Origin: Mesostigma viride
Lineage: Eukaryota; Streptophyta; Mesostigmatophyceae; Mesostigmatales; Mesostigmataceae
NCBI GenBank assembly: GCA_009746045.1
Contig: RPFO01000175.1
Coordinates: 5,665,414-5,729,413, forward strand
Length of the DNA: 64,000 nt
Direction of reading: 5' to 3'
A model generated the notes under the pieces. The model ran no database searches and had not been told where the DNA came from. It was given only the letters and a program-made list of their open reading frames with translations. A program made the translations under genes and the position numbers. Shown here in pieces: positions 583-49,000 of the stretch (position 1 is its first letter; every line of letters begins with the position of its first letter).

Positions 583-2563
583 GTACGAACCGTCAATCAT
601 TTCGACGATTCTGCTTTCATTGTCTAACGCGTCATACCTGTCTGTCGTCAGGCGCGACTCGGGGCAACATCACGGAAAGGGAGCTGTGGCCTTTTTCGTG
701 AGCGAGTGTGCCAAGAGCGAGTGTTCCGTGAGCTTGGTTTACAGCGTAACGGGAGGGGGGGGACCTGGGCAGAAGTTATCGAGAATAGAATAGCAGCGAT
801 GTCGCAGAGCTGAAAGAGAGAGTTAGCGTTGGCACTTTGGTATACCAGGCTTGCTGCCTTAGAGGGGCGTAGTAGTTTGCTCCGCATGGCAGATCCCGTT
901 GTGTGGATTAAGTGGAAGTAGCGCGTTTAGTGTGTGTGTGTGTGTGTGTAAGTAAGTAAGTAAGTAAGTATCGTACTGTAATCCTTACTGTAACAAGAAC
1001 GGGGGCTTCGCCCCCGAGCCCCCGGTAGTAACCGATATTGCACCTCTCCAGCATTTGTGGCCGGTCTCCGGCCGGACACGTCACCTACTCTACTACAACC
1101 GTCTATGGAACGTGTGCACATTTAGGGGCCACTGAACGCGAGCAAATATTCCAGTCCAGGCAAGCAACTTGGGTGAAAATCGTCCGCTTGAGTGAATGCC
1201 GTAGCGCGTTCCAGGGTATCGATCCCCTGGACCTGAGCATAGAGTGCCAAGTGTACCGTTTATGGGAACACTGTCCTACATAACACAAATGCCGTGCATA
1301 CGGTACTGACGATCCGGTAGTAAAGTACCCCAAGGTGTTGTTGTTGATGATGTTGTTGCCCACGCTCACATGGGCAGCACTTGGAGACTGGGATGCATAA
1401 CTAATGCTACACCGCCGATCCGGCCACACTTACGACAAAGTTACTTGAAGACATGGACACAATCATACCGCTTGAATCATTCCCAACGCCGCAATTCTGT
1501 GGTCAATACGCCACGCTACTCGAATACGGAAGAGTTTGCGCAACAATTTGGGCAAGAGTGTGGGCAAACAACATGTCGGACCCCAGCCAAAATCACGCAG
1601 TTTGCTGTCTGACAAAAGTTTGGCCGCAAGGGTGGCACAAATGGGCCAAACTTTGGCGCGCAACCAAGGGACGCAACCAAGCCAACGGCACGCGTGTAAG
1701 GGAACCTCTACAGTCGCCCCGCCAATCGCGGTCACCGCGGCTCTTTTCTCGCACGCGGCAACAGTTTGTGGAAGAGTTTGCGCAAACTTTTCGCTGTCTA
1801 AAATCGCAGTATATATGGCAATACGCGGGCAGGGCGATGTGTATCTTTTTGGGCCCATGTTCAGGTAGAAGTGCGGCTGATGCGGAGTCGCACGGTACTG
1901 CTGGAAGGGCGTGTACAAGGCAACATTTACGGTCTAGAGCAGATTAGCTTGCCCCATGGATTGCGCACATACACACACATACACATAAAGGCCACACACG
2001 CATACACACAAAAGACATGGACACACATACACACATGCGTGCACACACAGAAGCGCAGACACATACACAGATTACACACGCACATACATGCACACACGCA
2101 AAACACGCACACACACAAAATAATAATTAATAAATAAACTTTAAAAAAAACTGCAAGGACCAGGACTATGAAGTTCAAGGACCAGGATAATGACATGGGG
2201 CGTACGGCTAACTGCCCTTACCTCCCCACCACCATCGCTCGTACCCGTCGCATACTCATCTCTTACCCCCGCACATGCGTTGACGAGAAGAGCAAGGACC
2301 AAGACAGGCTGTTCATGGTCAACCAGCGCAGTTCCCCAGGATGGCCTAGCACTGCTCCTTTGTTTCCCCTCACACGCTCATCCCTTCCCCTCACACATTC
2401 CTCCCTGACCCTCTCGCACACCCATTCCCCCCCCCTCCCCTTCCCCCTACACACCCACACACACACACACACACACAAACACACACACACACACACACAC
2501 ACACACACACACACACACACACACACACACACACACACACACACACACCTCCCCCCTACACAG
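583..2563 (+). other. Non-coding stretch, probably intron, with microsatellites
   Basis: No convincing exon was found. It holds a (GT)n(AAGT)n block at about 928-971, a CA-rich imperfect microsatellite at about 1964-2112, and a clean (CA)n block at about 2449-2548 directly upstream of the acceptor used by the exon at 2564. A possible small exon after the AG at 650-651 gives reading frames of about 50-140 nt, but none joins convincingly to its neighbours. Short ORFs here have atypical composition. Confidence 0.5.
2281..2331 (+). repeat. Decayed duplicate of the 5' end of the exon at 2564
   Basis: Encodes DEKSKDQDRLFMVNQR, against DEKSKDQDKVFMVNQR at 2565-2612, about 283 bp downstream. The duplicate has no AG acceptor in front of it (CATGCGTTGACG instead of CTACACAGTGATG), so it should not be spliced as an exon. 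The (CA)n microsatellite and polypyrimidine tract lie between the two copies. Shorter echoes (AAGGACCAGGA) occur at about 2154-2185 and may be older copies. Confidence 0.85.
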
Positions 2564-46000: not shown

Positions 46001-49000
46001 GGCATATGTTCTGCTGCAAGGAAGGATGGCAGGGGCATACTGGAAGGGTGTACGGCACATGGCATAGGGTACAGTACGTGGCAACTAAAGGACAGGCGGT
46101 CAACATGTGTGGCGTAAAGCTGTTGGGGGCGTGGGTAGGGACAGGCTGGACATTCTTTTTGCAGGGAATGCGTACAAGGGAAGATGGCGGGGCGGCACGG
46201 TATGGGTCTGCGTAGGGTATGTGGGTGTAGTGGTGTACAGTACTGGGCCAGCAGTGCGAGCCTGTTTTGCATGAAGCCGTTGGGGGCTGAGGTAGGAGGG
46301 GGGTGGGGTGGGGGGTCGCGGGTTTTATATGGTCAGATTGCCAACGACAATGCACCGGTGGTCTTAAAAGTACAGAGCTTTTGTGTGTAACTGCTTCTGA
46401 GGTCGTTTGCATGGCACGGCTGGGCTATCTGTTGAAATATGTTTTAGTGGGTTTGTTCTACTTTTGCCTCTTCTTCGCGCTTCATTATCCTGCCGTGGCT
46501 TCCTCTTGTCTCATGGATCATGGTGCCATCTGCTCTGTTGCCCCTACCCATTTTCTGTCTCCCCCCCTCCCCCCGTACCCACTACCCACTTGCATATTCC
46601 CTCCCACACACACACCTCCACCCCCACCCCCAGGTGCGCCCCGTCCACGGCGGCACAGCCACGCTCAAGGACGCGACGAGCGAGGCCATCCGCGACTGGG
46701 TGACCAACGTGGAGTCGACACACTACATCCTAGGATCCGTCGCCGGTGAGTGCTTTACAAGAGGACGTGCGACCTGCCTTCATAAGAGCTCACTTTATAG
46801 AGTGTAACTCACCTTGTAAAAGCTCTCCTTTTAAGAGGGGAAGTCAGCCACTCACGAAGCTATATCCAGGGTATAGCCCTTACATAGCACCTGGCTTGTA
46901 TAGCCGGTATATATCCTGGTTGTCTTCTTGGTATATAGCGCTTTGCGCAGCTTTTTGTGTTGTTGTTCACAATTCCGCCCCCCCCCCCCCCCAACACACA
47001 CACACACACACTTACTTTGTGGCCCTTATAGCACTCTTGAGTAGTATCGAGGATCTGCTGCTGCGGCCCGTTGACTCCATCGGCTCTCGTCTGTGACCGT
47101 GTCTTCCTCGTTCCACCGCTTTCTCCGCCTGTTCTCACCGTTTTAGGCTTGTTAGAGTTTCCGCGTTTTTCTGTATCTGGTAATCCCGGCTCGCACGTGC
47201 CCTCTGCCTCTCCTACCCGGAATACCCGTAAGCGTTAACCAGTCAACCCAATCAGTCAGCCCCAGCCCCCTCCCTTAAAGCCATGCTCTGGAGCGCTCCC
47301 CACCTGATCGCCATCGTCACCCGCCTAAAACATCACTCCTCTCCCCTGGTCCCCGTTCCCCTTTGTTCTCCTTTCTCTGGCTATCTCCCCTCCCCTTCCC
47401 CCCCTTGCAAACAAACCAAACAATGCGTCGCCTCCGGCCCCCAGGCCCCCACCCATACCCCATGCTGGTGCGCGAGTTCCACGCCATCATCGGCAAGGAG
47501 GTCCGCCAGCAGACGCCCGCGCACTTTGTCGGCCTGCCCGATGTGCTTGTCGCGTGCGTGGGCGGCGGCTCCAACGCGATCGGCCTGTTCACCGAGTACC
47601 TGGACGAGCCCAGCGTGCGCATCATTGGCGTGGAGGCGGCCGGGCACGGCATCGACACGGACAAGCACGCGGCCACGCTCACGCTGGGCCAGCCGGGTGT
47701 GCTGCACGGCGCAATGAGCTACCTGCTACAGGACGAGGACGGGCAGATCGTGGAGCCCCACTCGATCAGCGCGGGGTGAGTTCACGGGACTGGAAGCGCA
47801 AGGGTTAGTTTGTGTGGATGGGTTCTAGAGCGCAAGGGTCGTTTGTGTGGATGGGCACTACAGCGCAAGGGTCGTTTGTGTGGATGGGTAATACAGCGCA
47901 ATAAGGGTCATTTGTGTGGATGGGTACTACAGCGCAAGGGTCGTTTGTGTGGATGGGTAATGCAGCGCAATAAGGGTCATTTGTGTGGATGGGTACTACA
48001 GCGCAAGGGTCGTTTGTGTGGATGGGTAATACAGCGCAATAAGGGTCATTTGTGTGGATGGGTACTACAGCGCAAGGGTCGTTTGTGTGGATGGCATCTC
48101 AAAATACGGTGTGTTTCATGGGAGTTTTGGTTATGTTGGGAGGTGGTTTGCCCTTGTACTCGTTCAGGACGCGGGGGAAGGGATCTTGGTCACGAGTGGA
48201 GGTGGCGGTGTTGTCTTGCACTGGGGCAGCAGGGGGGCGAAAGGGAAAGCAAGCGCAGGCTCATCGGAGAGAACGCCCACCAGCAGCTGTTGGAGTGGCA
48301 TATTCTGACACAGGGCATTTCAACTAGGTTTTGAGAGAACTCGAGGGTGGTTTCTGGATGACCCGTGCTGTGGGTGCCATGCCCGTGGGCGGCGGCATGC
48401 ATCCTCTAATATTCCGGCTGCTCTTGCTGCGGCGTTCAACCCCGCGCGTTATGGCTTAATCTCGCTTGCGGCCCCCTGCTTTGGCCTGTTCTTTTTCTTG
48501 CTCGCATCATCTCTTATGCTCGCATCCCCTAATGTGCTCGCATCTTCTCTTATGCTCGCAATCCTCTCTTATGCTCGCATCTGCTCTTTATCCTTGCAGC
48601 CTGGACTACCCCGGCGTCGGCCCTGAGCACAGCTTCCTCAAGGACCTGGGCCGCGCAGAGTACTACAGCGTGACCGACAACGAGGCGCTGCAAGGTAGGG
48701 GACCGACAAAAGGACGCGTGTACCCTCTCTATAATAACCCATGGATTATGTACAAGGACCGGGGCGGTGCCCAAGTACTACAGTGTGACCATCCATGAGG
48801 CGCTGCAAGGTACGGGTTCAGTAGTCATGAGGTTAACCCTTGTGGAACCCTAAATAAGGTGAAATTATTTGGCGGGGCTAGCAGTCAGAAGAAGGGCTGG
48901 GTGTAGGCGCCGTGTGAGGGTGGTTGGTGCACTGCAAGGTACTCCAGGTGGCAGGAGCGTGGCTGTGCATGGCATGGCCATTGCGAGCCTCATGCCCAGT

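Follow-up and report, generated by a model that had tools for sequence, protein, structure and literature searches.

Gene models of the locus

The window analysed here is the whole 64,000-nucleotide stretch of Mesostigma viride DNA at positions 5,665,414 to 5,729,413 (forward strand) of contig RPFO01000175.1, and it holds three genes in which the edges of exons, together with their splice sites, recur within the flanking introns. The first, trpB (43008..50244, + strand), was placed by protein match and alignment with relatives, and its 8-exon model corresponds to Mesvir1 Mv02759-RA with 100% identity across 490 amino acids. The second, here called the long gene (22670..40652, - strand), has 15 modelled exons and 14 introns. 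Its first 15-exon model was 98% identical to Mesvir1 Mv02758-RA, and after the borders of intron 9 had been reset from the Mv02758-RA protein the product became letter-identical to residues 5-436 of that protein, the annotated version starting 4 residues earlier. Intron 12 of this gene opens with a GC donor (GCAAGT, 25791, - strand), in a model that is identical to the Mesvir1 protein. The third, a gene for a basic protein on the + strand, was modelled from open frames and splice consensus only; the modelled part begins with exon 2564..2751 and continues with exon 2 (3644..3810) and exon 3 (4893..5561), and a homologue search gave none at E 0.001. Neither the long protein nor the basic protein had a Pfam match above cut-off or a PDB match at E 0.001.

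In combination, the three genes provide a set of 23 introns with 46 edges and a total of 24,422 bp. The borders of 20 of these introns agree at the protein level with a Mesvir1 annotation that did not guide the models; of the remaining three, one was set from the Mesvir1 protein and two, those of the basic-protein gene, come from our own model only. For the species as a whole, passages of PMC6947507 give a mean intron length of 1,142 bp and describe 30.1% of the intron space as repetitive.

Copies of exon edges in the adjacent introns

Each junction was represented by a query of 25 nt of exon and 20 nt of intron, aligned to the rest of its own intron following masking of runs of 1-3 bp units, and judged against 300 dinucleotide shuffles. 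At ≤3 of 300 shuffles, sixteen of the 46 edges (11/23 donors and 5/23 acceptors) were found copied in the intron that they flank, as compared to 3/46 in a reverse-complement control (Fisher p 0.0015); the copies are in direct orientation. Furthermore, 14 of the 16 passing edges outscored every swapped edge (20-21 each), the exceptions being the long-gene intron 3 acceptor and intron 10 donor. With the exon letters alone (40 nt), 12/46 edges were still found at ≤1 of 100 dinucleotide shuffles. At a fixed score of 65, taken without shuffle correction, 41 of 1,183 exon pieces set against unrelated introns gave a match, as did 5 of 78 pieces from exon interiors set against adjacent introns. These tests confirm that the exon-edge copies in the introns of the three genes are real, as the preliminary description of the window had proposed, and support a recurrent process acting at both intron ends in three neighbouring genes, far above chance.

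The donor cases named in that description were recovered throughout. Its long-gene exons A, E, F, H, K and L were taken as exons 1, 5, 6, 8, 11 and 12, and all nine listed donors (basic-protein gene at 3811; long gene A, E, F, K and L; trpB exons 3, 4 and 7) passed, K and L being non-significant with exon letters alone (27 and 18 of 100 shuffles reach their score). The acceptor cases held for three of four, namely long-gene F and H and trpB exon 4. The fourth, at 2564, is a near copy (45/52) of the exon start at 2281..2332 (+ strand), which lies outside the tested introns and has no AG before it.

In the basic-protein gene (+ strand) the donor side of exon 2564..2751 recurs at 2811..2853, from exon position -14 to intron position +30 (0 of 300 shuffles), and the acceptor side of exon 2 is represented by six decayed matches with scores of 63-98 across 2964..3533, starting at 2964, 3092, 3200, 3350, 3427 and 3491 (best 0 of 300 shuffles); neither set was among the cases listed earlier. 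The donor edge of exon 2 has five decayed copies within 3853..4181, which begin at 3853, 3934, 3971, 4073 and 4158 (best 0 of 300). In trpB (+ strand) the donor edge of exon 3 is copied at 45099..45141 (0 of 300 shuffles). The acceptor side of exon 4 is found again at 45418..45491, extending from intron position -29 to exon position +39, with 35/40 exon letters retained and AG changed to AC. Three decayed copies of the exon 4 donor edge start at 45950, 46095 and 46259 (45950..46298), with weaker matches between and beyond them, and the exon 7 donor edge recurs at 48753..48816 with 46/56 exon letters, the copy spanning positions -36 to +7 of the junction.

In the long gene (- strand) the donor edge of exon 1 is present as six near-identical copies in a 70/82-bp tandem array (40050..40460), and that of exon 5 as four copies (34328..34536; best 0 of 300 shuffles), with a match extending from -39 to +21. 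The pyrimidine tract, the AG and the first 35 nt of exon 6 are copied at 34198..34244, and the acceptor side of exon 8 at 31372..31405 (0 of 300 shuffles). The exon 11 donor recurs as two short copies (27186..27265) and the region of the exon 12 donor as weak ones (25700..25752), likewise at 0 of 300 shuffles.

The most extensive case is a minisatellite of about 40 copies of a 34-bp unit in long-gene intron 6 (32681..34040, - strand), identified by Tandem Repeats Finder and by pattern. The unit consists of 24 nt of the end of exon 6 and 10 nt of intron including the donor, and the array is arranged head to tail, with a unit within the 10-100 bp range of minisatellites. By pattern, 33 donor copies were found, mostly 34 bp apart; 25 of these outscore the annotated outermost donor, and all 33 would introduce an in-frame stop if used. 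Two copies in this intron reach 34 identical exon letters.

A possible exon end at 462-655 (+ strand), which resembles the C-terminus of a penicillin-binding protein, gave nothing in Pfam; its last 16 nt recur (14/16) before an AG 69 nt downstream. The stretch 567-651 was considered as a fourth case and left out of all counts, with 11 of 500 shuffles reaching the match and the gene unconfirmed by Pfam.

Copying across junctions and within introns

Edges are not the only intron positions that are copied. When positions in the interior of the introns were subjected to a like test, 173/400 passed in the downstream and 159/390 in the upstream direction, corresponding to means over 22 introns of 0.29 and 0.26. 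In an earlier version of the interior windows the background from shuffles was high (0.25 and 0.17), and other interior tests were used in its place. For acceptors, 5 edges passed as compared to 6.6 expected from the interior rate of each intron (pooled comparison, Fisher p 0.08). The 40-nt exon-only version gave 7/23 donors and 5/23 acceptors, against interior means of 0.27 and 0.25.

Further into the exon, copying declines. None of 26 exon windows located 41-80 nt from an edge was copied, compared with 12/46 edges (p 0.003), which points to contiguous duplication across the junction. When six edges were searched with exon queries as long as 120 nt, keeping at most the best 8 matches per edge (a number reached in long-gene intron 6), the exon part ended ≤3 nt from the junction in 16/16 matches, and the copies hold exon and intron letters contiguously across it. 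With respect to copying, exon edges thus behave in much the same way as the adjoining intron, and the copying dies away inside the exon, which we read as contiguous duplication over the border with only the outermost sites kept.

Repeats in introns and elsewhere in the window

Local direct repeats were found in 263/564 intron windows, 24/143 exon windows and 122/873 windows outside genes. Arrays detected by Tandem Repeats Finder cover 8,407 of 24,422 intron bases (34.4%), 114 of 3,796 exon bases (3.0%) and 1,441 of 35,782 bases outside (4.0%), and touch 15/23 introns. Still, the proportion of windows with direct repeats differs between individual stretches outside genes, from 2% to 41% (no shuffle correction), and these stretches include a reverse transcriptase fragment (PF00078, 51207-51887, + strand), and the specificity of duplication for introns is therefore a lead rather than a finding.

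Two further repeats lie within the long gene, an array of up to 1.5 kb in intron 10 (28658-30133) with about 216 units of 7 bp (GAGGGGC) and GTTTAGG-type repeats in intron 2 (37913-38038), presumably telomere-like. Outside the three genes, an open frame of 576 amino acids (16230-17960, - strand) matches an ARM-type Pfam family at a score under the curated cut-off and may represent a further gene, and a stretch of about 120 bp that looks by eye like zinc-finger coding sequence is present twice, at a distance of about 450 bp (20030-20620, + strand).

Proposed explanation

These introns probably grow by recurrent local tandem duplication, which sometimes runs across an exon junction and leaves the protein unchanged. 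Segments of roughly 30-150 bp would be duplicated repeatedly, and the introns of these genes would lengthen as a result. Where such a segment straddles a junction, the outer copy would remain exon and splice site while the inner copy would turn into intron and decay. Provided that splicing uses the outermost donor and acceptor, the protein would stay the same, so that purifying selection would tolerate the duplications. Some arrays may subsequently re-amplify into minisatellites with dozens of donors, as in long-gene intron 6. The duplication event itself could stem from slippage during replication, from unequal exchange or from the repair of breaks; we infer that the copies are neutral and that the same applies throughout the genome. 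Such a process would offer a simple route to long introns without a change of protein, with a source that remains readable as the exon copy is held by selection.

The gene models bear on the part of this explanation that concerns splice-site choice. The annotated proteins use the outermost sites, and alignments of TrpB and of the long protein with five relatives each revealed no extra residues at the junctions with copied donors. Since the alignments contain no added residues at these junctions, they support the outermost donor as the probable productive one. In animal systems, the spliceosome shows a preference for the intron-proximal ones among duplicated donors. Long-gene intron 6 represents a natural experiment on donor choice.

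A farther-reaching version would make the introns of Mesostigma a compartment with its own transcription- or splicing-linked tandem duplication, which routinely passes over junctions and leans towards donors; intron length would be determined largely by decayed arrays of units that carry splice sites. If this were true, the spliceosome would have to select the outermost site by a rule other than strength, given dozens of donors that equal or surpass it. We consider this version doubtful.

Alternative explanations

Several observations weigh against growth by tandem duplication, and they are given here with the alternatives that have to be considered. The excess of arrays in introns comes mostly from the long gene, where they make up 44% of intron bases, as compared to 16.5% for trpB and just 3.3% for the basic-protein gene. 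The increase of intron length with repeat fraction (Spearman 0.74, n = 23), which speaks for such growth, is in part automatic, as longer introns offer more room for matches. The tandem character of many copies is likewise uncertain. Sixteen of the 46 edges were entered into a comparison of the whole period from edge to copy, with some units cut by eye, and 15 were testable (long-gene intron 6 was too short, its 34-bp array being shown separately). The whole period recurs past the copy, in favour of tandem duplication, in 5/15 (≤1 of 200 shuffles), namely the donors of long-gene intron 1 and basic-protein intron 1 and the acceptors of trpB introns 2 and 3 and basic-protein intron 1. It was marginal in 2/15 (4 and 15 of 200) and absent in 8/15. 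Among the edges that fail are strong copies such as the donors of trpB exon 7 and basic-protein exon 2 and the acceptor of long-gene exon 6, in which the repeated part is confined to the exon edge and a few letters of intron.

An alternative with a better claim than those that follow, albeit in our judgement an unlikely one, is therefore non-tandem templated insertion, in which repair of a break within the intron copies nearby sequence by template switching and pastes the copy in. A pasting-in of junction pieces is compatible with the data, and the eight edges whose edge-to-copy stretch repeats at chance level (72-200 of 200 shuffles) have the appearance of isolated short blocks. However, templated insertion predicts sources in exon interiors as well, at odds with the 0/26 copied windows and with exon parts that end ≤3 nt from the junction in all 16 matches. 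Moreover, inverted copies are rare in introns (24/564 windows, with 10/143 in exons and 82/873 outside genes). Under tandem duplication, the pattern would be blurred by the constancy of the exon letters, the drift of intron letters in both copies and nested duplications; in trpB intron 7, the sequence past +6 again resembles exon 7 by eye, indicative of such nesting.

A second alternative is a mutational process aimed at splice junctions, above all donors, for example via R-loops or spliceosome-linked breaks; an anchoring of this kind had also been put forward in the preliminary description. The observation in its favour, and against a general duplication of intron sequence, is that 11 donor edges passed where 7.2 were expected from the interior rate of each intron, a borderline excess of 1.5-fold (P 0.05). 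Conversely, the pooled interior (173/400) gave a Fisher p of 0.67 for donors, and acceptors fell below their expectation. A constrained exon copy in addition eases the detection of edges, and a mild excess is to be expected in any case. Interior targets were shorter than edge targets and an exon copy is slower to decay, both of which favour edges, and the donor excess is consequently read as at most weak. Anchoring at splice junctions thus found little backing, save for the borderline donor excess, as interior positions are copied at similar rates and acceptors show no excess. For the most part, the copies appear to be a by-product of introns that are prone to duplication, and a process targeted at splice sites is improbable.

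Thirdly, the copies could be retained by selection because they serve as reserve or decoy sites for splicing. This was addressed with 55 copied donors, hand-picked by typed patterns, a set in which 33 come from one array and copies without GT are absent. Outside long-gene intron 6, 18/22 copied donors rank among the best-scoring tenth of intronic GTs, 13/22 come within 1 unit of the score of the annotated site or exceed it, and the 25 of 33 stronger donors in that intron point in the same direction. Nevertheless, young copies carry good donors merely because they are copies. The preliminary description had further stated that copies often keep the donor while the exon part decays. With the two young arrays (long-gene introns 1 and 6) excluded, GT was kept in 12/16, 8/10 and 7/7 donor alignments at cut-offs of 62, 75 and 85, as compared to 51/96, 39/68 and 34/58 for near-exon dinucleotides (p 0.17, 0.30 and 0.04). 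GT was significantly better kept only at the strictest of the three cut-offs tried, where this counts against the main explanation, and not at the two laxer ones. The AG of acceptor alignments was kept in just 4/15, 2/6 and 2/5 at rising cut-offs, and 53/55 copied donors would lead to an in-frame stop if used. The earlier suggestion of reserve or decoy sites accordingly gained little support from these data, and we regard it as slightly less probable still than targeting of junctions.

An artefact of assembly or polymerase in repetitive introns, for which the long arrays of 7-bp units in the long gene might speak, is highly improbable, in that 14/16 exon-part matches are 70-88% identical to the exon (two, in long-gene intron 6, are identical) and misassembly of one sequence would not produce such divergence.

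Comparison with known systems

In the potato RdRp gene, a tandem duplication that spans an intron-exon boundary is known, as described in passages of PMC4974935. In that case the duplication created a new intron, whereas the Mesostigma copies lie within an existing, longer intron; they furthermore occur repeatedly, at the two intron ends and in each of three genes. Intron gain via a duplicated exon segment bearing AGGT (Rogers 1989 and Hellsten 2011) and 24-bp exon repeats of fission yeast are cited in the same passages. Common to these cases and, on the explanation proposed here, to ours is the local tandem duplication of exon sequence and splice sites with the protein unchanged. Gain of the present introns between two copies, as in the Rogers model, was considered and rejected: across the 23 introns, an ungapped comparison of 20 letters gave identities between exon end and intron end of 2-11/20, with 2-12/20 for swapped pairs, a comparison that old cases would escape. 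In Drosophila, novel intron positions have arisen via migration or via duplication of exon sequence, according to passages of PMC2891723. There the positions moved or arose, whereas in Mesostigma the inner copies decay and the intron borders match those of relatives. Introners, transposable introns that occur as similar intron copies in unrelated genes, were also considered (PMC9860276); of the copied edges found here, 14/16 outdo every swapped edge in the match to their own intron.

With regard to Mesostigma itself, PMC6947507 likewise describes repeat-rich introns, in passages without duplicated exon edges or splice-site arrays. The word intron is absent from the main text of PMC7027972, of which the passages treat repeats and gene prediction. 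Among the open-licence matches listed, judged by title and start of abstract, no publication on exon-edge copies in Mesostigma introns was found. As far as these sources reach, the duplication of a boundary is in itself already known. What appears to be new is that old introns have been lengthened time and again, from either end, by units that contain the junction, in the extreme case by a donor array of 40 units.

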